A stretch of 64,000 nt of DNA, from positions 1,640,501 through 1,704,500 of the forward strand of contig NZ_FPHO01000003.1 in assembly GCF_900117455.1 (NCBI RefSeq), in the 5' to 3' direction. Position 1 is the first letter of the stretch. Each line of letters opens with the position of its first letter. This DNA comes from Hyphomicrobium sp. CS1GBMeth3. GTDB taxonomy: Bacteria > Pseudomonadota > Alphaproteobacteria > Rhizobiales > Hyphomicrobiaceae. Under the pieces are notes generated by a model. The model was not told the DNA's origin and did no database searches. It was given only the letters and a program-made list of their open reading frames with translations. The position numbers and the translations under genes were made by a program. Shown here in pieces: positions 26,399 to 36,488 of this stretch.

Positions 26399-27186
26399 GG
26401 CTCCTACTCCACAGATTTGTCTGCAGATGCAGACTGGTTGGGTCGACGGAAGAAACCGCCGCTGATCCGCATGTGGAGATTTGGTTCGATAGGTTCCAAT
26501 TGAACACAACCGGCCCCATGATTGAAATTTTCAATTGGCCGGAAATCGGCCACATGCCTCCAGGCGTGCAGCCGCTGTAGAAGGCGTCATTCGTAGAACG
26601 GCCAGCGGGCAAGCAAGAAGCTGAAACAATCAAGACAAGATTTGCCCTCTGTGTCGTGCGCCCTGCCAAAGGGACCGGCTGAGCGCATAGCAGCCTTGCC
26701 GCACCCAACCGCAAGAATGACGGTCAAGCCACTAGCGGATCGGTGTCGTGAACGGCTTTTGCATGCCGTGTGACGCGCACCCAGGGGCAAACCCGATCGA
26801 TGTGCTGCAGCAAAATAAGGAGACTGCGATAGAAGGAGCGATGTTCACGGAGGCCTGTGTAGTGCAGACGCACTCGCCGCACTGTACGCGCATGCATCGT
26901 GCCACGCTCTCAGCCGGTTCTTCTAGGCACTCGGGCCAAATACCGAGGTGCGCCGGACCAAATGACATACACGTCAACGCCCGACATCATTGAAGCCGAC
27001 TTTCGTATCACCGGCGGTCGTCCTCCGCGGAACTGCTCGGGGTAGGTCACATCTGCATTTCCCGGGCTCTCTAGCTCGCCGATGCTGATGTTGTTTTGCT
27101 GCGAAGCTAGCTGGAGCTCGATATTGATTCCAATTAAAATCAACCCCATCTCTCATAGAAAATAACAATGGGTAATGCGAGTAACG
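26399..27186. promoter_or_regulatory. Divergent control region between the xoxF unit and the LysR regulator
   Basis: These 788 bases have no convincing gene. The region near 26496-26538 holds nested inverted repeats: ATTGAAA-T-TTTCAAT (26521-26535, perfect) and outer CCAATTG (26496-26502) / CAATTGG (26532-26538). They lie about 100-140 bases upstream of the small secreted protein start, a plausible operator for a LysR-type regulator. The bases just upstream of the LysR gene are A/T-rich. Confidence 0.45.
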
Positions 27187-28110
27187 ATGCCTAGTCTGAA
27201 ACAGCTTCAATACCTCGCTGCGATTGCGGAGACGCACCATTTCGCCCGGGCTGCCGAGCTGTGCCACGTTACTCAGCCCACTCTCAGCACTCAGCTTGCA
27301 GCATTCGAAAAACGCCTAGGACTGGCACTTGTCGAACGGGCACAGCATGGCGCCCACTTAACGCCTGCAGGACGTCTCATCCTTGAACGCGCAGAAATTG
27401 CTCTTAGGAGCGTGGAGGAGATTCGCGAGATCGCCAGAGCGGGAAAAAAGGGCGTTGTCGGCACCGTGCGCATTGGCGTCCTGCCGACACTCGGCCCATA
27501 CATGCTGCCTGAGCTCTTGCCCGACATTCACCATGTACATCCTCAGCTCAAGCTCTATGTGCGCGAGGAACTCTCTGAGGATCTTATCGCCAATCTGCAC
27601 CGAGGTAAGCACGACGCGGTTTTCACGTCTTTGCCTATTGGGAGTACCAACCTCCAAATCCGCCCCCTTTTCTGGGAACCGATCGTGGTTGCCATACCAA
27701 GCGGTCACCGACTGTCTGAAAAGACGGCACTGTTGCCCGGTGACCTAAAAGGAGAAGCGGTTCTGACACTCGAGCCAGGACATATTCTGCATCGACAGGT
27801 TCGCGATGTATGTGAAAAGTATGGGGCAGAGCTGCAGCTCGATTATGAAGGGACAAGTCTCGACACACTAAGGATCATGGTGGGTATGGGTATGGGGATA
27901 GCGCTCTTCCCCGCGCTGTATGTGCGGTCCGAAATTCCGAAGGACGCGAATGTGAAGGTAGCCAAATTACCCGATGCTAAGACTGGACGCACAATTGTTC
28001 TGGTCTCCAGGAGTAGCTCGCCGCGCGCACGTGATTACGATGCCCTTTCCAAGTCTCTGAGGCAATTTATCAGGTCGAAGTTCTCCGATGTCGTGCGCTT
28101 GGTGTCCTGA
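27187..28110 (+). CDS. OxyR-like LysR-family regulator lacking the peroxidatic cysteine
   Basis: This 307-residue regulator has an N-terminal winged helix-turn-helix (LKQLQYLAAIAETHHFARAA, HVTQPTLSTQLAAFEKRLG) and a C-terminal OxyR-like sensor domain (TVRIGVLPTLGPYMLPELLP; LTLEPGHILHRQVRDVCEKY). In OxyR the last motif is GHCLRDQAMGFC, with Cys199 and Cys208. Here the first position is Ile while the second Cys is kept, so the peroxide-sensing disulfide cannot form. It diverges from the xoxF unit and could control it. ATG 27187 matches the usual OxyR-family start; ATG 27175 is in frame. Confidence 0.85.
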   Translation: MPSLKQLQYLAAIAETHHFARAAELCHVTQPTLSTQLAAFEKRLGLALVERAQHGAHLTPAGRLILERAEIALRSVEEIREIARAGKKGVVGTVRIGVLPTLGPYMLPELLPDIHHVHPQLKLYVREELSEDLIANLHRGKHDAVFTSLPIGSTNLQIRPLFWEPIVVAIPSGHRLSEKTALLPGDLKGEAVLTLEPGHILHRQVRDVCEKYGAELQLDYEGTSLDTLRIMVGMGMGIALFPALYVRSEIPKDANVKVAKLPDAKTGRTIVLVSRSSSPRARDYDALSKSLRQFIRSKFSDVVRLVS

Positions 28111-28718
28111 GGACGCAATTGGCTAAGAACCACGGCGGCGGGCCAAGGCGACCGCCAATAAGCTCCACCCACGCGAGCCGCACCTCACGGTGGCAGTCAT
28201 CTGTCCGCTTTCTGACGCGATGAATCATCTTCGAAAGTTCCTGGAGGGCGAGCAGGTTCGCCCGGATGTTGAGGATCTCTTCGATCTGCCCCTCTGGTCT
28301 CTCTGGTTGATCGAAGCCGAGCTGTTCCCGGACATTCCCTCAAGCACGTGGCACCATATCACCCGCGGTCGCTGTCGCTTGAACAACACCTAGTTCGGGC
28401 CCAATCGAATTCGAGTGCATCGCGGCCGAAACCTATCCCTCCACTAGCGGATTCAGCGCCGCTTCGTGAAGCGCCAGGGTTGGAAGAAAGGCCGCGCCAC
28501 GCAAAAGCACCCCTTTCGTGCCGTTCCGCACCTCACTGGCGTCAGCCCTCTTGCCGAGGCACAGAGCACCTCGAGTCCCCTAGGTATTCTCAAATCTGAC
28601 AGTGCTCCGCAAAACCTGCTGCAGATCGAATGCTGCTGTGCACGCACAGTTGAGCGCATCGGTACTACTTCCTATATCCCGAAAGTGCCCCTGGAGTGCC
28701 CCGAAGGGATGCTATGCT
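28111..28718. other. Region upstream of the Dap operon, possible small frame
   Basis: These 608 bases separate the LysR gene from the biosynthetic operon. A 58-codon frame (28220-28393) starting MNHLRKFLEGEQVRPDVEDL has high third-position G/C and may be a small gene or a fragment. Nothing else was recognised. The operon promoter should be near the right end, but no clear hexamers were identified. Confidence 0.35.
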
Positions 28719-29687
28719 ATGATTGTTGAATCGCCGCTGGATATAATTTTTCGGGACGTGTTCTATCGTCTCAGAGCCTTCGCTGGCGATCACGACGTCT
28801 TCCTGAAGCTTGAGGGCTTTAATGTAACCGGCTCGATCAAGATCAAGACCGCCATTGGACTGATCGAGGATCTGGAGCAGCGCGGCGTTGCCAAGCCCGG
28901 CGAGACAGTTATCGTTGAATCGTCATCGGGGAATCTTGGCGTCGCGCTGAGCTTGGTCTGCGCCATCAAAGGATACAAGTTCATATGCGTGACGGATTCC
29001 AATGCCACGCGCGCTAATATCAGAGGCATGGAACTCTATGGTGCCAACGTCTGCGTGGTCGACGATTGCGGCACTAACGGTGGGTTCCTTGCAAATAGAT
29101 TCAAAATCATAGATCGCATACTTGAAACGGAGCCTCACGCTGTATGGCTCAATCAGTACGACAACATCGCGAATAAGAACGTCCACGCGGAGCAAACCGC
29201 GAACGAGATCGCGCACGAGTTTGGCACCGTCGACTGGATTTTCGTCGGCGCCGGCACCACGGGAACGCTTGCTGGGATTTCCGAGCAACTACGCCAAACG
29301 TATCCCAAGATAAGGATTGTGGCTGTCGAGCCCGAAGGTTCGGTCACATTCGGAGGTCAGCCCAGAAAGCGGCACATTCCGGGAATCGGAACCAGCGAAA
29401 GGCCGAGGCTCGCCGACTTGGCTGACCCAGACAGAGTCGTAGCAATCGACGAGGCGACGACGATCGAGGCGTGCCTCTCCTTCGTTCGCAAGTATCACCT
29501 GCTCGTCGGCGGAAGCACCGGCACCGTGCTGGCCGCGATCGAGAAGCTGGCTCCGGAGTTCAGGTCCGGAGACACGATCGTCGCCATCTCCGCAGACCTC
29601 GGAGAGAAATATCTGGACTCGGTTTATGATCCCCGTTGGGTGCGGAAGGTCATTACGTCAGAAAGCAAGGTTCTTGTCCAGGCGTGA
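28719..29687 (+). CDS. sbnA: SbnA-like PLP enzyme: N-(2-amino-2-carboxyethyl)-L-glutamate synthase
   Basis: This 322-residue PLP-dependent enzyme of the cysteine synthase fold is close to SbnA of the staphyloferrin B pathway (326 residues), which condenses O-phospho-L-serine with L-glutamate on the way to L-2,3-diaminopropionate. Visible motifs are KLEGFNVTGSIKIKTA with the PLP-binding Lys, VESSSGNLGVALSLVCA for the substrate carboxylate, and GAGTTGTLAGISEQL, the phosphate loop. SbnA-type PRKRHIPGIGTSERP and GGSTGTVLAAIEKL follow. ATG 28719 matches SbnA length; the longer reading upstream is not protein-like. It is the first gene of a four-gene operon and overlaps sbnB by four bases (GTGA). 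The SbnA assignment rests on motif and context, not on a database search. Confidence 0.85.
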   Translation: MIVESPLDIIFRDVFYRLRAFAGDHDVFLKLEGFNVTGSIKIKTAIGLIEDLEQRGVAKPGETVIVESSSGNLGVALSLVCAIKGYKFICVTDSNATRANIRGMELYGANVCVVDDCGTNGGFLANRFKIIDRILETEPHAVWLNQYDNIANKNVHAEQTANEIAHEFGTVDWIFVGAGTTGTLAGISEQLRQTYPKIRIVAVEPEGSVTFGGQPRKRHIPGIGTSERPRLADLADPDRVVAIDEATTIEACLSFVRKYHLLVGGSTGTVLAAIEKLAPEFRSGDTIVAISADLGEKYLDSVYDPRWVRKVITSESKVLVQA

Positions 29688-30715
29688 GGGAACACTACGT
29701 GGCTACGGCTCCGACATTCCACGTCGTTCCAGGCTCGGCAGTAAAAAGCGCAATCGAAGGCAATCGGAGCGGAGTTTTCGCCGCCGTCGAGACCGCGTAC
29801 CGTCTCCATGCCGCCGGAAGGTCCGTAAACCCCGACAGCTCCTTTCTTCGGTTTCCGGACAGCCCGAGCGCGCGCATTATTGGGCTCCCGGCCCATCTCG
29901 GCGGGGCGGTTCAAAAAAGCGGCATCAAATGGATCTCGAGCTTTCCGGCCAACCGGGCCGGGAACCTGGCCCGGGCCTCGGCTGTTCAGATCATCAACGA
30001 CGCCGCGACGGGCTATCCCATTGGCTGTATCGAGGCGTCGCTCATCAGCGCGACGCGCACCGCCGCCTCCGCGGCCCTTGCAGCGGAGCATCTGTCTCCG
30101 ACGCCTTTTGAGGGAGAGCTCGCCGTCATCGGCACCGGCGTGATCGCCCGCGCCACCGCCGAGTGGCTGCTCTTTCGAGGTTGGAAGTTCCGAAGCGTCC
30201 GCCTCTATGACATAGACCGGAATGAGGCCGCGCGGTTCAAGGCCTGGATTCGCGACGAGAAGGGTCTAGCGGCGGAGGTCCATACTAATCTGGAAGGCGC
30301 CCTGCGGGGTGCCTCATTAATCCTCTTCACCACCACGGCGCTCGAGCCCCATCTCGCCGACGAGACACTGCTCGCGCACGCGCCGACCGTTCTGCACCTC
30401 TCGCTGCGTGACCTCTCCGTGGATGTGATCCTCGCCGCGCAGAACATCGTCGATGATATCGATCACTGCCTGAAGGCCAACACGTCCCTCCATCTGGCAG
30501 AACAGGCGACGGGACATAGGGACTTCGTAGCAGGCACTTTGGTTGATATTCTCGATCAGAGGCTTAAGTCGGACTTCGAACGGCCGCGCATCTTCTCGCC
30601 GTTCGGCCTCGGCGTGCTCGACCTCGCGGTCAGCGACTTCGTGCTTCAGGCGGCCATATCGTCCAACGCAACGCTCGCGCTTTCTGACTTCTTCAGCAAC
30701 TCGGTCCGATGGTGA
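29684..30715 (+). CDS. sbnB: SbnB-like NAD-dependent dehydrogenase (Dap synthesis)
   Basis: This 343-residue enzyme is of the ornithine cyclodeaminase/mu-crystallin family. SbnB oxidatively hydrolyses the SbnA product to L-2,3-diaminopropionate and 2-oxoglutarate. Features are the N-terminal half with GLPAHLGGAVQKSGIKWISS and FPANRAGNLARASAVQIIND, then the Rossmann domain with ELAVIGTGVIARATAEWLL (GxGxxA) and LYDIDRNEAARF, whose Asp favours NAD. The tail IFSPFGLGVLDLAVSDFVL matches SbnB. The start is GTG 29684, overlapping the sbnA stop by four bases, giving translational coupling. With SbnA it supplies Dap for the downstream NRPS. Confidence 0.85.
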   Translation: MREHYVATAPTFHVVPGSAVKSAIEGNRSGVFAAVETAYRLHAAGRSVNPDSSFLRFPDSPSARIIGLPAHLGGAVQKSGIKWISSFPANRAGNLARASAVQIINDAATGYPIGCIEASLISATRTAASAALAAEHLSPTPFEGELAVIGTGVIARATAEWLLFRGWKFRSVRLYDIDRNEAARFKAWIRDEKGLAAEVHTNLEGALRGASLILFTTTALEPHLADETLLAHAPTVLHLSLRDLSVDVILAAQNIVDDIDHCLKANTSLHLAEQATGHRDFVAGTLVDILDQRLKSDFERPRIFSPFGLGVLDLAVSDFVLQAAISSNATLALSDFFSNSVRW

Positions 30716-30722
30716 GGCAAGG

Positions 30723-31862
30723 ATGCAGGTTAGCGATCAGAACGTTTCTAGCGACGTGTTGAGCCGGACGGAGTCCCGCGCTGCCTCATCAGGGAGGGAC
30801 GTCGACCCGGCGCCGCGGGTCTGGAGCTGCAACGAGTGGGACCCGCTGGAGGAGGTCATCGTCGGCAATGTGCTGAATGCGCGCTATCCGACGCCGGACC
30901 AAAGTACGCAAGTGGCGGAGTTCCCCGACCGGCCCCTTGCTGAGATTCCGCGTGGGCAGTTCCCGCAGCGGATCATCGAGGAGACGGAGGAGGATCTGGA
31001 CGCGTTCGTCCACATCCTGGAGAAGGCCGGCGTCACTGTGCAACGGCCGGACACCTGGCCGCACGACGCCAGCTTCTCCACCATCAAATGGAAGGCACAG
31101 GGCTACTACAATTATTGCCCCCGGGACCTCATTCTGGTGATCGGCGACCAGATCATCGAGACCCCCAATGTCATCCGCAGCCGCGCCCAGGAGACGTGCA
31201 GTTATCGAACCCTGTTGCTCGAGTACATGAGGTCGGGTGCGAGATGGTACAGCGCGCCGAAGCCGATGCTGCTCGACTCTCTCTTCGAGGGCGTCGATCT
31301 CGAGAAGCCCACGCCGCACAACCACGAGCCGGCCTTCGACGCTGCAAACGTGCTGCGTTTCGGCGAGGACCTGATCTACCTCGTCAGCGCTACCGGCAAC
31401 GAGCTCGGCGGCCGCTGGCTACAGGCGTGCCTGGGGGACAGGTATCGCGTCCACTTCCTCAAGGATGTCTACTTTGGGAGCCACATCGATTCGACGATCG
31501 TCGCCCTGCGGCCCGGCCTCGTGCTCTGCAATCCCGGGCGTCTCAACGACGACACGCTGCCGCCGATCCTGAGGCAGTGGGAGGTCATCTACAGTCCACC
31601 GATGGAGAACACGGACAGGCACGATGCCGAGTACATCTCGATGAGCATCGGCAGCGACTGGATCGACATGAACGCCCTCAGCATCAATCCGAGCTTGGTC
31701 GTGGTCGACCGCAACCAGCCGTCGCTGATCAAGCTCCTGGAGAAGCACGGTCTTGACGTGATACCCCTGCAACTACGCCACTCAAAGCTGCTGGGCGGCG
31801 GCCCACATTGCATCACTCTGGACGTCCGCCGCAGGGGCACCCTTGAGCGCTACTTCGATTGA
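30723..31862 (+). CDS. Arginine:amine amidinotransferase (AGAT/GATM family)
   Basis: This 379-residue enzyme is of the L-arginine:glycine amidinotransferase family, which moves an amidino group from arginine to a primary amine. The three catalytic elements of human AGAT are recognisable: the Asp in FDAANVLRFGEDLIYLVS, the His in YFGSHIDSTIVALRPG (AGAT HIDAT), and the nucleophilic Cys in LLGGGPHCITLDVRRRG. The end, RRRGTLERYFD, closely follows AGAT. It starts seven bases after sbnB and 36 bases before the NRPS gene. In this operon the likely acceptor is Dap or a Dap residue in the peptide, giving a 3-guanidino-alanine side chain; that substrate is inference. It is the same length as bacterial amidinotransferases in natural-product clusters. 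Confidence 0.9.
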   Translation: MQVSDQNVSSDVLSRTESRAASSGRDVDPAPRVWSCNEWDPLEEVIVGNVLNARYPTPDQSTQVAEFPDRPLAEIPRGQFPQRIIEETEEDLDAFVHILEKAGVTVQRPDTWPHDASFSTIKWKAQGYYNYCPRDLILVIGDQIIETPNVIRSRAQETCSYRTLLLEYMRSGARWYSAPKPMLLDSLFEGVDLEKPTPHNHEPAFDAANVLRFGEDLIYLVSATGNELGGRWLQACLGDRYRVHFLKDVYFGSHIDSTIVALRPGLVLCNPGRLNDDTLPPILRQWEVIYSPPMENTDRHDAEYISMSIGSDWIDMNALSINPSLVVVDRNQPSLIKLLEKHGLDVIPLQLRHSKLLGGGPHCITLDVRRRGTLERYFD

Positions 31863-31898
31863 GTGTGCCCAAAGGTTCCGAGCATGTGAGGAACGACC

Positions 31899-34800
31899 TT
31901 GGCATTCGCGGCGACCATCCTGGCGGGCTTCCTCATCTTGGTGTTTCTGGCTTGGCGTCAGTATCTCTGGGCGGGCAGGTGGCGTGAGCTTGTCGACACA
32001 TGCCCCTACAGCTTGACGGACGTATTCGGCCGCAACCATTTGGCGAAGGTGCCGCACCAGAAGGGCGTGCGCTGGCTCCCGGAGATCTTCAGCCGCTCCG
32101 CCGTGCGGTACCCTGATCTGCCCGCCCTGCAGATTCCCCACACCGGCGAGACGCTGACATACGCCGAGCTCGATGCGCGCGCCGAGCGCGTGGCCGCGGC
32201 CGTATCCCCGTTCTTGACGGGACCTGACCAGGTGGTCGCAGTGGCGATGCCGCAAGACAACTGCGAGATCGTCGCCGCGCACCTCGGCGTGCTCAGGGCC
32301 GGAGGCACGCTGGTCGTCCTCGATACGACGCTACCCGACGCCCTGTTGGCGCATATGCTCGACGACGCCCGCCCGGTAGTCGTACTGACACGCGGCGAGG
32401 CAATGTTTCGCGCATTGCCCACGCTCGACCTGTTGGCGTTGCCGCAGGAACTGCCGGAACGGCGGCCACCGTCTTGGCTGGACGATCCCGCGCAACGCCT
32501 CGCCACCATCTTCTACACGAGCGGCACCACCGGCCTGCCCAAGGGCGTAGACTGCCCGCACGCCGGCTACGTGAACCTCGCGCTCACCTACGCGGACTAC
32601 TTCGACTTCGTGCCCGGCGTCGACGCGACCTCGCTCACCTCGTCGCTCGGCTACGACGGCAGCATCTCCGAGATGTACAGCGCCTGGGTCTCGGGCTGTG
32701 CAGTGGTCCTCTTGACGAAGGGTCAGGTCCGATCCGGTCCGGAACTGGTCCCCGTGCTGTGCGAGGCCGAGGTCACAGTGCTGTTTTGCCCGCCGGTGCT
32801 CCTCACTGCTCTGACGCTCACGCCCGAGGTGGATCTTCCCTATCCTCTGTGCCGCTACATCGTGCCCGCGGGCGAGGCCTTTCCCGCCGCACTGGTCGAA
32901 CCGTGGACACGCGGCCGGCGCCAGATCATCAACACCTACGGTCCGACGGAAGGCAGCACCGACACGAGCCGCCAGAGCCTACGGGCGGGCGAGCCGATCA
33001 CCATCGGCTCACCGTTCGCCAACGTCACCTACGTCATCCTCGAGGTCGACGGACTCACCCCGCTGCCGCATGGGGAGGTCGGCGAGCTTTGCATCGGTGG
33101 CGTCCACCTCGCGCGCGGCTATCGCAACCTGCCGGAGCAGACGGCCCACAAGTTCATCACTCACCCTAGGTTCGGTCGCCTCTACCGCACGGGTGACAGG
33201 TGCAGGATCGACATTCGCACCCAGCGTGTACACTTCCTCGGCCGCCTCGACGCGCAGCTAAAGGTGCGCGGCCACCGCGTCGAGGCGCACGCTGTAGAGG
33301 ATATCCTGCAGAGCGAGTTCCGAGAGATCGAGGCCGCGGTGTTAGACTACCAGAACGAGGCCCTCGTTGCGTTCGTGGCTGCGCCCTCTCTCTTCCCGGG
33401 GAAGATCCGGGCAGCCGTTCCCGCGCCGGCGGAATGGGCGACCTGCGTAACGGCGCTCCTCGCTGAGCGACTTCCGGCGCCGTCGGTTCCATCGAGCATC
33501 TACCTCGTGGAGAAGTTCGCTACGAGCCCGGTGTCAGGGAAGATCGACAGGAAGCGTCTGCCGAATCTCTCCACGCTCACAAAGCCTGCCGCACCCGAAA
33601 TCGAACCGCCGCTGGTGCGAAAGCAGGACGGGGAGCAACGGGAAACCGAGCCGCCGCGCGCGGAGGCGGCCCTGCCGCCAGGCTCGGAGGAAGTGCTGGC
33701 GATCTGCCGCGCCGTGATCGACGCGCCGCTCGGGTGGGACGACGGCTTTGCCGAGTCGGGCGGACATTCGATCGCCATCGCACGCTTGGCGCAAAGGCTG
33801 CACGCCGCGGGATGGCACGTCTCGGTCCGCGCGCTGCTGACCGACTGCAACACACCGCGAAAGGTCGCTAGAGGCGCGAGCCAGGCGCATCGTGCAGCAA
33901 CCGCCCCGACCGTTTCCGCGAGGCCCGCGGAGAGTAGGGCGAGGCGCGACGAGCATGCGGCGGAGGTGCTCCCGGTTGGATACTTCACGACCCTGCAGGT
34001 GCTTTTCGCGCTCTTCCTGTACCTCCCGGGGTTGGTCGGCTTCTTCGTCGCCTTGGCCTACATCGAGATCGGGACGTTCTTCGCCACGGCCAGCCTTGGG
34101 GCATTCATCGCCGTCGGCGGCGCACTCTATCTGCTGGGTCTCCTTCTGCCGTTCGCCGCCCTGCTTTGGGTCAGGGCGATCAAGCGGATTATGGGCGGCG
34201 ACGCCTTGAGTAACAACGTCACGCCGGGCGTATATCCCAAGTGGAGCCGGATGCATCTCCGCATCTGGTGCATCACCCGGTTGGAGAGCGCGGTGCTGCT
34301 GCCGCTCGGCGCGATGTACCGCAGCGCGCCGCTCCTGGCCTTCGCGCTGCGACAGCTCGGCGCCACCGTGGGCCGCAATCTGCAATGCGCGCATGACGCC
34401 TATCTGGCCGGACCGGTGGATCTGCTCTCCATTGGTGACGACGTCGCCATCCAGACCGGGGCCTACATCCGTACGGCGCGGCTCGTGGGATCCAACGTGC
34501 ACGTCGGCCCCATCCGCTTCGAGAGCGGTTGCAAGATCGGAATGCGCGCCGCCGTTGTCGAGAACCTGACGATTGGGCGCGGTACGTGGATCACACCGTT
34601 CACGCCCATCCTCGGCGACGTCGGCGCGCACGAAATGTGGGAGGGCGCGCCCGCGCGCCTCACCGGCCACTATACGGAGCTCACACGCACAGCGCGCGTC
34701 TGCCAGTATGCACAGCCCATATGGCTGCTCGAGACGCTCAATGTTCTGATGCAGGTGTTCATCTACTTCTGGCTCAGCCTTCTTCCCGGGGCGGCAATCC

Positions 34801-36188
34801 TATGGTTCGCGCGGGAATTCATCCCCGCCGGCGAGGCCGGGTTGTCGGATACCTATTTCCAGGTCACGCCGCTGCCGGAGATCGCCTGGCAGCTTACGCT
34901 CTACGCCTTCATCAGTGCCTGGCTCGGGGCGGTCGTGCTGTCCGTGCTCACCTGTCTCTTCATCCGCTGGACCGCCGCCGCGCCGGGGCTCTACCCCGTG
35001 CACGGGCTTCACGCCGCACTGCTGATGTACCGAATGAAGGGGATGAACAGCCTACAGGGGCAATGGACGTGGACTATCACCGGCCAGTATCTGCGCGCGC
35101 TCGCAGGTCTGCGCTTTCCGCGGGTTGGCGCGTCGGAATGCGACGTGATGTTCAACCTCGTCCCGGACGCTGCGAGCGCCGACACGCAGGTGTTCTGGGC
35201 CAACGGCTGCTTCACGAACATGCTCGACTGCAGCGCGACGCACTTCACGCTGCGTCAGCTCGAAATGCCGAGGAACTTCTTCAGCGGCAACAACTGCGTG
35301 GCGGAGTACGGGCAGCTCCCGGACAACTTCATGCTGGGTGTCTCGACGCCCGCCAGTGACATCGAGTTTCGGCGCCAGATGCGGTTGCGGCCGGGCGCGC
35401 CGATCACGGTGGCCGGCAACCCGCCGGTGAGGTTCGCGAGCGCCGCGTTCGAAGAGGAGAACAAGGCCATCAAGCCGCCCGGCTTCCGGCTGTTCCTGAC
35501 GCGGGTCCTGCTCAACGACTTCTTCAGCGTTGGGACGCTGGGCATCGCCGAAGGCTTGATCTTCACCATCCTCTTCGTCTGCGGGCTGAGGTGGGGCGCC
35601 GATCCGATCACGGGCACAATCGCTGCTCTTGTCGTTGCCGAGGCCTGCCTGATCGCGCTCTGCGTAGGGATCAAGGCGGCCCTCGTCGGCCGATGGGGAG
35701 CCGACGACGCGACGCCCTTCTGGTCCTGGAAGCACTTTGCCTATTTTTTCGCCCAGGACTGCTTCTTCGCCTGGTGCCGGGGCCCGCTCGGCTTCAGTGC
35801 CGGGACGATCCTCTCGAACCCCATCCTGCGCTGGATGGGATGTCGGATTGGCAGCCGCACAATCGTAACCCAGCCCATGCAGTGCTCTGACTGGAACGCG
35901 GTGGATTTCGGCAATGACTGCACGGTCGACGGCTTCCTACAGTTCCACAGCTTCGAGAACATGACGCTAAAAGTGAAGCGAACCCGCATCGGGGACGGCT
36001 GCGCCGTGAGCTTTGGCGCTACGGTGATGGGCGGCGCGAAAATCGAACGCGACACGACACTCTTGCCGCTGTCCCTGGTCCTCAAGGAGGTGAGCCTGTC
36101 CACGGCCACCTACGAGGGCAGCCCCGTCGAGCCAATTGAGGCTCAGTCGGGCTGCTGCGATGGGAGAAGCGGTTACCGAGCGCGCTGA
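31899..36188 (+). CDS. Membrane NRPS of the poly-lysine-synthetase (Pls) type: TM-A-T-6TM
   Basis: This 1429-residue single-module NRPS has, in order: an extra N-terminal membrane helix (residues 1-20); an adenylation domain (about 55-560) with FYTSGTTGLPKGV, INTYGPTEGSTD, LYRTGDRCR, GRLDAQLKVRGHRVE and SGKIDRKRLP; and a thiolation domain (about 600-670) with FAESGGHSIAIARL, whose Ser carries phosphopantetheine. From about 690 to the end is a region like that of epsilon-poly-L-lysine synthetase (TIGR02353-type): three pairs of membrane helices (about 692-755, 947-1025, 1205-1275) alternating with soluble domains containing left-handed beta-helix-type repeats. In Pls these domains join monomers iteratively without classical C or TE domains. 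The binding pocket, aligned by hand to GrsA-PheA, reads D-G-S-F-V-A-T-T-D-K; the Asp at position 331 suits a basic side chain. The start is TTG 31899 after GAGGAA. The monomer (Dap or guanidino-Dap) is inferred from the operon. Confidence 0.9.
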   Translation: MAFAATILAGFLILVFLAWRQYLWAGRWRELVDTCPYSLTDVFGRNHLAKVPHQKGVRWLPEIFSRSAVRYPDLPALQIPHTGETLTYAELDARAERVAAAVSPFLTGPDQVVAVAMPQDNCEIVAAHLGVLRAGGTLVVLDTTLPDALLAHMLDDARPVVVLTRGEAMFRALPTLDLLALPQELPERRPPSWLDDPAQRLATIFYTSGTTGLPKGVDCPHAGYVNLALTYADYFDFVPGVDATSLTSSLGYDGSISEMYSAWVSGCAVVLLTKGQVRSGPELVPVLCEAEVTVLFCPPVLLTALTLTPEVDLPYPLCRYIVPAGEAFPAALVEPWTRGRRQIINTYGPTEGSTDTSRQSLRAGEPITIGSPFANVTYVILEVDGLTPLPHGEVGELCIGGVHLARGYRNLPEQTAHKFITHPRFGRLYRTGDRCRIDIRTQRVHFLGRLDAQLKVRGHRVEAHAVEDILQSEFREIEAAVLDYQNEALVAFVAAPSLFPGKIRAAVPAPAEWATCVTALLAERLPAPSVPSSIYLVEKFATSPVSGKIDRKRLPNLSTLTKPAAPEIEPPLVRKQDGEQRETEPPRAEAALPPGSEEVLAICRAVIDAPLGWDDGFAESGGHSIAIARLAQRLHAAGWHVSVRALLTDCNTPRKVARGASQAHRAATAPTVSARPAESRARRDEHAAEVLPVGYFTTLQVLFALFLYLPGLVGFFVALAYIEIGTFFATASLGAFIAVGGALYLLGLLLPFAALLWVRAIKRIMGGDALSNNVTPGVYPKWSRMHLRIWCITRLESAVLLPLGAMYRSAPLLAFALRQLGATVGRNLQCAHDAYLAGPVDLLSIGDDVAIQTGAYIRTARLVGSNVHVGPIRFESGCKIGMRAAVVENLTIGRGTWITPFTPILGDVGAHEMWEGAPARLTGHYTELTRTARVCQYAQPIWLLETLNVLMQVFIYFWLSLLPGAAILWFAREFIPAGEAGLSDTYFQVTPLPEIAWQLTLYAFISAWLGAVVLSVLTCLFIRWTAAAPGLYPVHGLHAALLMYRMKGMNSLQGQWTWTITGQYLRALAGLRFPRVGASECDVMFNLVPDAASADTQVFWANGCFTNMLDCSATHFTLRQLEMPRNFFSGNNCVAEYGQLPDNFMLGVSTPASDIEFRRQMRLRPGAPITVAGNPPVRFASAAFEEENKAIKPPGFRLFLTRVLLNDFFSVGTLGIAEGLIFTILFVCGLRWGADPITGTIAALVVAEACLIALCVGIKAALVGRWGADDATPFWSWKHFAYFFAQDCFFAWCRGPLGFSAGTILSNPILRWMGCRIGSRTIVTQPMQCSDWNAVDFGNDCTVDGFLQFHSFENMTLKVKRTRIGDGCAVSFGATVMGGAKIERDTTLLPLSLVLKEVSLSTATYEGSPVEPIEAQSGCCDGRSGYRAR

Positions 36189-36191
36189 CGC

Positions 36192-36488
36192 TTAGTCGTC
36201 TTCCAATGCTTCCGCCGCCTGCAGCAGGCCCATGGCGGGATTCTGCTCGCAATGCGCTTGGATGTCCTCGGCGTCCTCCTGCGCCGCAGCAAGATCGACC
36301 TTTGCATCCTCGGGGCTCTCATCGTCGGCAAGGTAGCCGTCCAACCAAACGGCGAGCAGCCGAAGCGTCGCGTCGGGCAGCGCAGCGACCTCTTTGCAGG
36401 TGATGGTACGAACATCTATCGTTTGGGCCTTAACGGAGGCCGCCGCCAGAAATGGCACGGCCAACACAATGGCAACGGGATGCTTCAC
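36192..36488 (-). CDS. HdeA/HdeB-like periplasmic protein
   Basis: This 98-residue secreted protein has a GTG start after AGGAGAC, a signal peptide ending VKAQ, then TITCKEVAALPDATLRLLAV and WLDGYLADDESPEDA, and a second Cys in IQAHCEQNPAMGLL. The two-cysteine all-helical HdeA fold binds unfolding proteins in an acid-stressed periplasm. The mature domain is acidic. It ends four bases after the convergent NRPS gene, with no room for a terminator between them. A protective role against a polycationic product is speculation. Confidence 0.72.
   Translation of the reverse strand: MKHPVAIVLAVPFLAAASVKAQTIDVRTITCKEVAALPDATLRLLAVWLDGYLADDESPEDAKVDLAAAQEDAEDIQAHCEQNPAMGLLQAAEALEDD

Follow-up and report, generated by a model that had tools for sequence, protein, structure and literature searches.

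A Hyphomicrobium operon predicted to supply, guanidinylate and activate diaminopropionate on a Pls-like membrane synthetase

Introduction

What would a bacterium make with an operon that places two putative diaminopropionate-forming enzymes next to an amidinotransferase and a membrane-embedded nonribosomal peptide synthetase (NRPS)? The question is raised by four genes at positions 28719-36188 of a 64,000-nucleotide stretch from Hyphomicrobium sp. CS1GBMeth3 (contig NZ_FPHO01000003.1), whose genome is assembled as 4.03 Mb in three contigs. The whole stretch is called the window below, and coordinates without a locus name refer to it. SbnA and SbnB, which the first two products resemble, are the supply genes of staphyloferrin B. 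The bacterial cationic homopolymers treated in two published studies are amine-bearing isopeptides of diamino acids (PMC10522769, PMC4668381).

Here we propose, tentatively and at somewhat less than an even chance, that the operon makes L-2,3-diaminopropionate (Dap), converts it to L-2-amino-3-guanidinopropionate (guanidino-Dap) and likely joins units of this amino acid through the alpha-amine to give an oligomer or polymer rich in guanidine. The proposal builds on what is directly seen, namely the genes, their conserved association, intact catalytic residues, a near-invariant adenylation pocket and a predicted fold shared with known synthetases. No paper on the combination of SbnA/SbnB, an amidinotransferase and a Pls-like NRPS was found in searches of the open-licence literature, and the predicted product would be new among described natural products. 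An earlier, preliminary description of the locus had suspected an undescribed proteobacterial pathway; the literature is in keeping with the first of these adjectives, and the second proved too narrow, given that related loci occur in several phyla.

Results

Four genes form one operon

All four genes lie on the forward strand, and their reading frames are open and complete:

28719-29687, + strand: SbnA-like pyridoxal phosphate (PLP) enzyme, 322 amino acids, ATG start; TIGR03945 368 bits against a cut-off of 350
29684-30715, + strand: SbnB-like dehydrogenase, 343 amino acids, GTG start; TIGR03944 376 bits against a cut-off of 327
30723-31862, + strand: StrB1-type amidinotransferase, 379 amino acids, ATG start; match to 1bwd 372 bits
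31899-36188, + strand: Pls-like membrane NRPS with adenylation (A), thiolation (T) and membrane acyltransferase layout, 1429 amino acids, TTG start

They form one operon, in which SbnA and SbnB overlap by 4 bases and gaps of 7 and 36 bases precede the amidinotransferase and the NRPS, respectively, exactly to the base as the preliminary description had it. The SbnA-like frame stays open farther upstream, to a GTG at 28602.

The SbnA-like and SbnB-like identities assigned at that time also hold. The two genes are adjacent and both products exceed their curated NCBIfam cut-offs; the best solved-structure matches are SbnA (5d87, 208 bits) and 4m54 (109 bits), which is titled a putative ornithine cyclodeaminase and which we take to be SbnB of Staphylococcus aureus. 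Among the solved structures matched by the pair are SbnA/SbnB of staphyloferrin B and CmnB/CmnK of capreomycin. Whereas those pairs are found with siderophore or cyclic-peptide genes, the window's pair sits with an amidinotransferase and a Pls-like NRPS.

The amidinotransferase and the NRPS are a conserved pair

A genome collection was scanned for relatives of the amidinotransferase, and the best 80 of 90 loci were analysed. A homologous NRPS gene comes next on the same strand at 52 of the 72 loci that have at least 700 bases downstream, and the gap between the two genes is 112 bases or less in 55 of 57 cases measured. Among the 20 loci where no NRPS comes next, two (L022 and L034) carry it on another contig of the genome, one (L033) has an NRPS tail upstream, and 14 involve more distant amidinotransferases (63% identity or less); the genomes of L047, L051 and L053 yielded no such NRPS at E 1e-100. 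The 58 pair loci belong to Pseudomonadota (44), Acidobacteriota (5), Thermodesulfobacteriota (2), Planctomycetota (2), Verrucomicrobiota (1) and a cyanobacterial bin (1), with three lacking a phylum. The conserved core in several phyla is this pair, not the four-gene set.

The preliminary description would have fallen with homologous operons that lacked any link between the genes; what we found is a conserved amidinotransferase-NRPS pair. The co-occurrence of all four families in other genomes, which it put forward as a check, is borne out for the pair and, for the supply genes, in part: both SbnA and SbnB are visible in the fetched stretch at 29 of the 58 pair loci, and some stretches stop at a contig edge. 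The nearest locus in the named genome collection, from a Hyphomicrobium metagenome assembly (L021), has an 86% identical amidinotransferase. The NRPS family is patchy, being present at E 1e-150 in two of 397 genomes of the order and one of 398 of the phylum (the window's own included in each), and it is not rare in sequence collections, where 1031 protein clusters match at E ≤ 1e-100. Names, where given in the best 120 of these clusters, are generic NRPS, AMP-binding or TraX labels. No match to the NRPS was found in plasmids at 1e-100.

SbnA and SbnB point to supply of Dap

SbnA and SbnB are both present in 16 of 25 fully covered neighbourhoods, while SbnB above its cut-off is scarce overall (3 of 398 genomes of the phylum, the window's included). 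The pair records that are not metagenomes (NaphS2, Zhengella, HTCC2080 and HTCC2148; four among the 80 loci) all have SbnA/SbnB nearby. The supply genes come in three kinds: type I, on the same strand and similar in sequence to those of the window; type II, on the same strand and distant in sequence; and type III, on the opposite strand, past the NRPS in most loci and ahead of the pair in L052. Over 31 loci including the window, median identity within type I is 80% for the amidinotransferase, 73% for SbnA and 71% for SbnB, against 77%, 35.5% and 40.6%, respectively, between types I and II. Different SbnA/SbnB lineages thus stand repeatedly beside the same core, a recurrence with no easy explanation unless the supply of Dap is important, and the pattern argues for a genuine Dap link. 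Two SbnBs from genomes in which the NRPS was not found branch beside type I and type III, respectively, in a quick SbnB tree, whose long branches allow this to count as a lead but not as proof. Two copies of the core are found in the planctomycete assembly to which L048 and L049 belong, and the L049 genome has two SbnA/SbnB pairs on other contigs.

Dap supply, as originally predicted, is the best reading of these two genes. In the poly-Dap producer Streptomyces albulus, Dap comes from two homologous supply enzymes whose genes are unlinked, as at the pair loci without local SbnA/SbnB, and which worked on serine and ornithine in vitro (PMC4668381); the donors used by the predicted SbnA/SbnB may therefore differ from O-phosphoserine and glutamate.

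Actinomadura sp. DC4 (L093) also combines, within one 21 kb stretch, a distant amidinotransferase with an SbnB-like gene and an NRPS, possibly another Dap/guanidino pathway.

The amidinotransferase is StrB1-like

The amidinotransferase matches no NCBIfam family and stays below every Pfam cut-off. Against solved structures it scores 372 bits with StrB1 (1bwd), 216 with SxtG and 205 with human AGAT (AGAT chains at 205 or less), so that the earlier label of an AGAT-like protein stands for the enzyme class, catalytic residues included, and gives way to StrB1 for the closest relative. Asp135, Asp206, His254, Asp256 and Cys363 are identical in 76 of 76 rows of the alignment and Arg273 in 74 of 76, the catalytic and arginine-site residues being assigned by what we take to be the AGAT numbering. 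The central codon is:

31809-31811, + strand: predicted catalytic Cys363 codon of the amidinotransferase, conserved in 76 of 76 rows

We predict an arginine-dependent amidinotransferase with its Cys-His-Asp catalytic and arginine-site residues in place. Aligned with AGAT chain 2jdx, presumably the Met302 deletion mutant, the acceptor loop shows no gaps. Glycine as the acceptor, as in AGAT, is weakened by the StrB1-like character of the enzyme. In a quick tree, the window's protein falls within a 62-row group (support 86, not starred) that also includes a few rows without the NRPS.

Homoarginine corresponds to lysine with an amidino group on the side chain. McyK, named an inosamine-phosphate amidinotransferase, is given as a route to homoarginine in a microcystin pathway (PMC12283262), and the structure of homoarginine implies lysine as its acceptor. 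By analogy, this route offers a precedent for amidinating free Dap ahead of activation. McyK bears the same family name (PMC12283262) as StrB1, the nearest solved structure to the window's enzyme; the latter differs from both in its predicted acceptor, Dap.

On a Gemmatimonadota chromosome (L051:8162-11104), an amidinotransferase (76% identical) follows a 544-residue PLP-fold protein that is distantly SbnA-like. We dropped this locus as support for amidination of free Dap: the neighbour is 26% identical to SbnA, scores 282 bits against a custom profile and matched no NCBIfam family at 1e-40.

The NRPS is a separate branch of Pls-type enzymes

The NRPS, which has AMP-binding, PP-binding and hexapeptide Pfam matches, is laid out as follows:

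31899-31955, + strand: hydrophobic segment before the A domain, found by hydropathy window in 37 of 47 family rows and 0 of 17 comparison rows
32088-33122, + strand: adenylation domain core, pocket code DGSFVATTDK (PF00501, residues 64-408)
33690-33872, + strand: thiolation domain with the GGHS serine, Ser624 (PF00550, residues 598-658)
33966-36140, + strand: C-terminal membrane domain, built of three left-handed beta-helices plus membrane helices; predicted site of condensation
35946-35948, + strand: codon of His1350, which together with Glu1353 is a candidate for catalysis in the condensation domain

The Pls-like A-T-membrane layout described earlier is therefore present, but membership of the Pls/PosA family is not supported. 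Against TIGR02353 (cut-off 423 bits), the window's protein scores 167 bits and three relatives 127-150, while two classical Pls rows used as controls score 555 and 540. By this cut-off, the NRPS is a new, separate branch of Pls-type enzymes outside the Pls/PosA homopolymer family.

With Pls/PosA enzymes, which make epsilon-poly-lysine, delta-poly-ornithine and poly-Dap, it shares the order of A and T, three beta-helix units arranged in tandem among membrane helices, the T-domain serine and a conserved His/Glu in the third unit. Four thiolation residues (F617, G621, H623 and S624) are common to classical Pls rows. In the C-terminal domain, 37 positions are invariant (in at least 95% of 43 family rows and in 14 of 14 classical rows), among them Glu1353 and His1350, the sole histidine. 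A predicted model keeps the three-beta-helix fold, with A and T followed by three tandem units and membrane helices. A structure search with the C-terminal domain matched chiefly the first beta-helix; the Pls entry found by sequence covers the A domain only, and the 60 of 109 matches listed for the C-terminal profile are hexapeptide proteins only. Unlike Pls/PosA, the window's enzyme lies below the family cut-off, has a pocket Ser in place of a conserved Glu and an Asp at position nine, carries an N-terminal hydrophobic segment (most rows) and an amidinotransferase neighbour, and has a predicted alpha-linked product.

The same genome also encodes a second, classical Pls-type synthetase (L105, G000:C3:279140-283045), which has the lysine-type code DAESVGTVVK and scores 555 bits against TIGR02353.

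The adenylation pocket is near-invariant and lacks the conserved glutamate

Pocket codes were read through a motif-anchored alignment, at positions that presumably follow the GrsA numbering; two unrelated NRPS matches (L087 and L093) were left out of the counts and the window's row was counted once. Of 48 distinct rows, 34 have DGSFVATTDK and 13 DGSFIATTDK, and one split row (L083) is without the first two positions. The third position is Ser in 47 of the 48, with Ala in the split row, and Glu in 16 of 17 comparison rows (the exception being L018), whose codes, e.g., DAESVGTVVK and DGESVSVVNK, resemble those described for enzymes of the lysine and beta-lysine type. The best 120 of the 1031 clusters (window included) agree with this: the window's exact code occurs in 100, Asp at position nine in all, and the third position is Ser, Pro or Thr in 120 of 120 and Glu in none.

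Every known cationic homopolymer synthetase is reported to conserve a Glu at the third position, which binds the side-chain amine, and the residue at position two is reported to become smaller as substrates lengthen, with Phe in the poly-Dap synthetase (PMC10522769). In the window's family, position two is Gly in nearly all rows. Taken together, the Gly at position two, the Ser at three and the Asp at nine would favour a side chain that is longer but still cationic. On these grounds, i.e. the missing Glu and a Gly where the poly-Dap synthetase has Phe, we rejected poly-Dap as the product and consider it unlikely. The homopolymer named in the preliminary description is thus disfavoured in its poly-Dap form, and homopolymer formation as such remains unproven. 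The substrate that best fits the whole picture would be guanidino-Dap.

Partner genes at related loci

The 25 covered loci include 14 with a phosphopantetheinyl transferase (PPTase), 16 with a DUF418 membrane protein, five with a TraX-like membrane protein, six with an S41 peptidase and 18 with a small exported protein. TraX-like and DUF418 proteins never share a locus (five against 16, with neither in four), and the S41 peptidase and the small exported protein never coincide either. In four Acidobacteriota loci (L023, L029, L036 and L097), a TraX-like domain is fused to the C-terminus of the NRPS, giving proteins of ~1700 residues; elsewhere it is a separate neighbour gene. Both fused proteins tested exceed the Pfam cut-off for TraX, and 14 of the best 120 of the 1031 clusters exceed 1650 residues. 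TraX was counted only above 300 bits and DUF418 above 140; the custom TraX profile included the NRPS tail, and matches of 30-152 bits inside NRPS rows are artefacts. That TraX-like and DUF418 proteins are equivalent acyltransferases was only a guess, and profile comparison shows no relation between them (hhalign probability 0.3).

The small exported protein (~126 residues) occurs at 38 loci, including L040, L043, L046, L067 and L073. It is found with most of the gammaproteobacterial loci and with a small number of others, has no Pfam match in the two cases tested and has a predicted ferredoxin-like alpha/beta fold.

Beside the window's operon, the PPTase, DUF418, TraX-like, S41 and small exported protein genes are all absent. 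A search without a positive control found no TraX-like gene in the window's genome or in three relatives. PPTase-family genes lie elsewhere in the window's genome and could serve the NRPS.

Discussion

The proposed pathway has four steps. Going by their families, SbnA would join O-phosphoserine and glutamate, and SbnB would release L-Dap. The amidinotransferase would then transfer the amidino group from arginine onto the amine in the side chain of free Dap, with ornithine as the by-product; that its presence in the operon predicts a guanidino product, as first suggested, is upheld as a prediction. From its pocket, the A domain is expected to adenylate the guanidino amino acid and load it on the thiolation domain, after which the membrane-embedded triple beta-helix domain, if its fold is a guide, would form amide bonds as in Pls/PosA. 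Since a guanidine side chain is not nucleophilic, growth must use the alpha-amine. A guanidinylated side chain cannot form an isopeptide bond; therefore, any polymer would be alpha-linked, unlike the known isopeptide homopolymers.

Several observations weigh against this pathway. On the supply side, 29 of the 58 pair loci do not have both SbnA and SbnB in the fetched stretch. When 16 genomes lacking them locally were searched as a whole (all metagenome assemblies by title, with contigs of at least 3 kb covered), 15 had no SbnB above the cut-off, the exception being L049, where SbnA/SbnB are located elsewhere. In addition, the SbnAs of NaphS2 (339 bits) and HTCC2080 (276) fall below the cut-off of 350, although their SbnBs pass. 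A loss of SbnA/SbnB is likely in one Luminiphilus group, because related Luminiphilus share the absence and SbnB is broken in one assembly (split into two frames at L074:16619-17216; several relatives have no SbnA/SbnB). As to the chemistry, Pls-type condensation is, to our knowledge, known for isopeptides only, and alpha-linked growth is without precedent in the family. The code DGSF(V/I)ATTDK appears in no source surveyed. Arginine-activating codes have Thr or Asp at position nine and mostly Glu at three and Asp at four (PMC12283262), where the present family has Ser and Phe, so that the Asp at position nine is the one residue in agreement. Modest activation of arginine is reported for a Bdellovibrionales homologue in which the Glu is retained (PMC10522769); guanidines can thus be bound with the Glu present. 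Lastly, no exporter was identified, and the window's genome gave no close match to the TraX-like, S41 and dedicated PPTase genes seen at other loci.

Alternatively, the amidinotransferase and NRPS may use another amine or amino acid, with SbnA/SbnB feeding a second building block or being accessory. The 15 genomes just mentioned, which keep the pair (and the pocket, where a full-length NRPS row exists) with no SbnB above the cut-off, would be explained in this way, as would SbnA/SbnB of distant types around pairs that are themselves close. The recurrence of different SbnA/SbnB lineages at the same core would, however, be hard to explain if Dap were irrelevant, and the genomes without SbnA/SbnB are, by title, metagenome assemblies throughout; we regard an acceptor other than Dap as improbable. 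Lower still we rank polymerization of Dap itself, with the amidinotransferase guanidinylating the finished poly-Dap or working in a side path. Nearby SbnA/SbnB genes and a poly-Dap synthetase of the same layout with homologous supply enzymes in S. albulus (PMC4668381) recommend it, but the Gly at position two, the absent Glu and the retention of the amidinotransferase gene with the NRPS where SbnA/SbnB are missing make it decidedly unlikely. A staphyloferrin-B-like siderophore operon, suggested by the role of SbnA/SbnB as staphyloferrin B supply genes, is very improbable indeed: no siderophore synthetase or receptor was seen among 13 Pfam-scanned neighbours (eight at related loci, five in the window), a scan in which NRPS-independent siderophore synthetases were not searched for directly.

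The most serious competitor accepts guanidino-Dap as the substrate and dispenses with the polymer. The NRPS could form a single amide bond to another acceptor, or the guanidine could attack the thioester to give a six-membered cyclic guanidine. This would suit the distance of the NRPS from Pls/PosA (127-167 bits where the cut-off is 423, with 540 and 555 for two classical rows), the inability of a guanidino side chain to join isopeptide growth, and the TraX-like (above its Pfam cut-off and sometimes fused) or DUF418 proteins beside the NRPS, which could provide or modify an acceptor. Against it stand the three-beta-helix fold of the C-terminal domain in the model and the 37 shared residues including His1350 and Glu1353, which make iterative condensation plausible. 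We judge a product of this kind unlikely, while granting it an appreciable chance.

If the guanidino-Dap pathway with alpha-linked growth is true, it would add guanidine chemistry to Pls-like operons, force a different linkage and bring the cell-penetrating and antimicrobial potential of oligoarginine. TAN-1057 and related antibiotics are derived from guanidino-Dap, which forms their core. A bolder extension, which we offer as doubtful though worth stating, is that the membrane synthetases of several phyla make alpha-linked poly-(beta-guanidino-L-alanine), a polyarginine-like polymer and the first Pls-type product without isopeptide bonds, capped at the membrane in Acidobacteriota by the fused TraX-like acyltransferase. 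The near-invariant pocket and the cross-phylum association yield one clear prediction on the adenylation substrate.

Neighbouring genes in the window

A LysR-type regulator gene (27175-28110, + strand) lies ~600 bases upstream of the operon; no sigma-70-like site is listed between it and SbnA. At the other end, an HdeA/HdeB-family gene (36192-36488, - strand) converges on the stop codon of the NRPS, with 3 bases between them.

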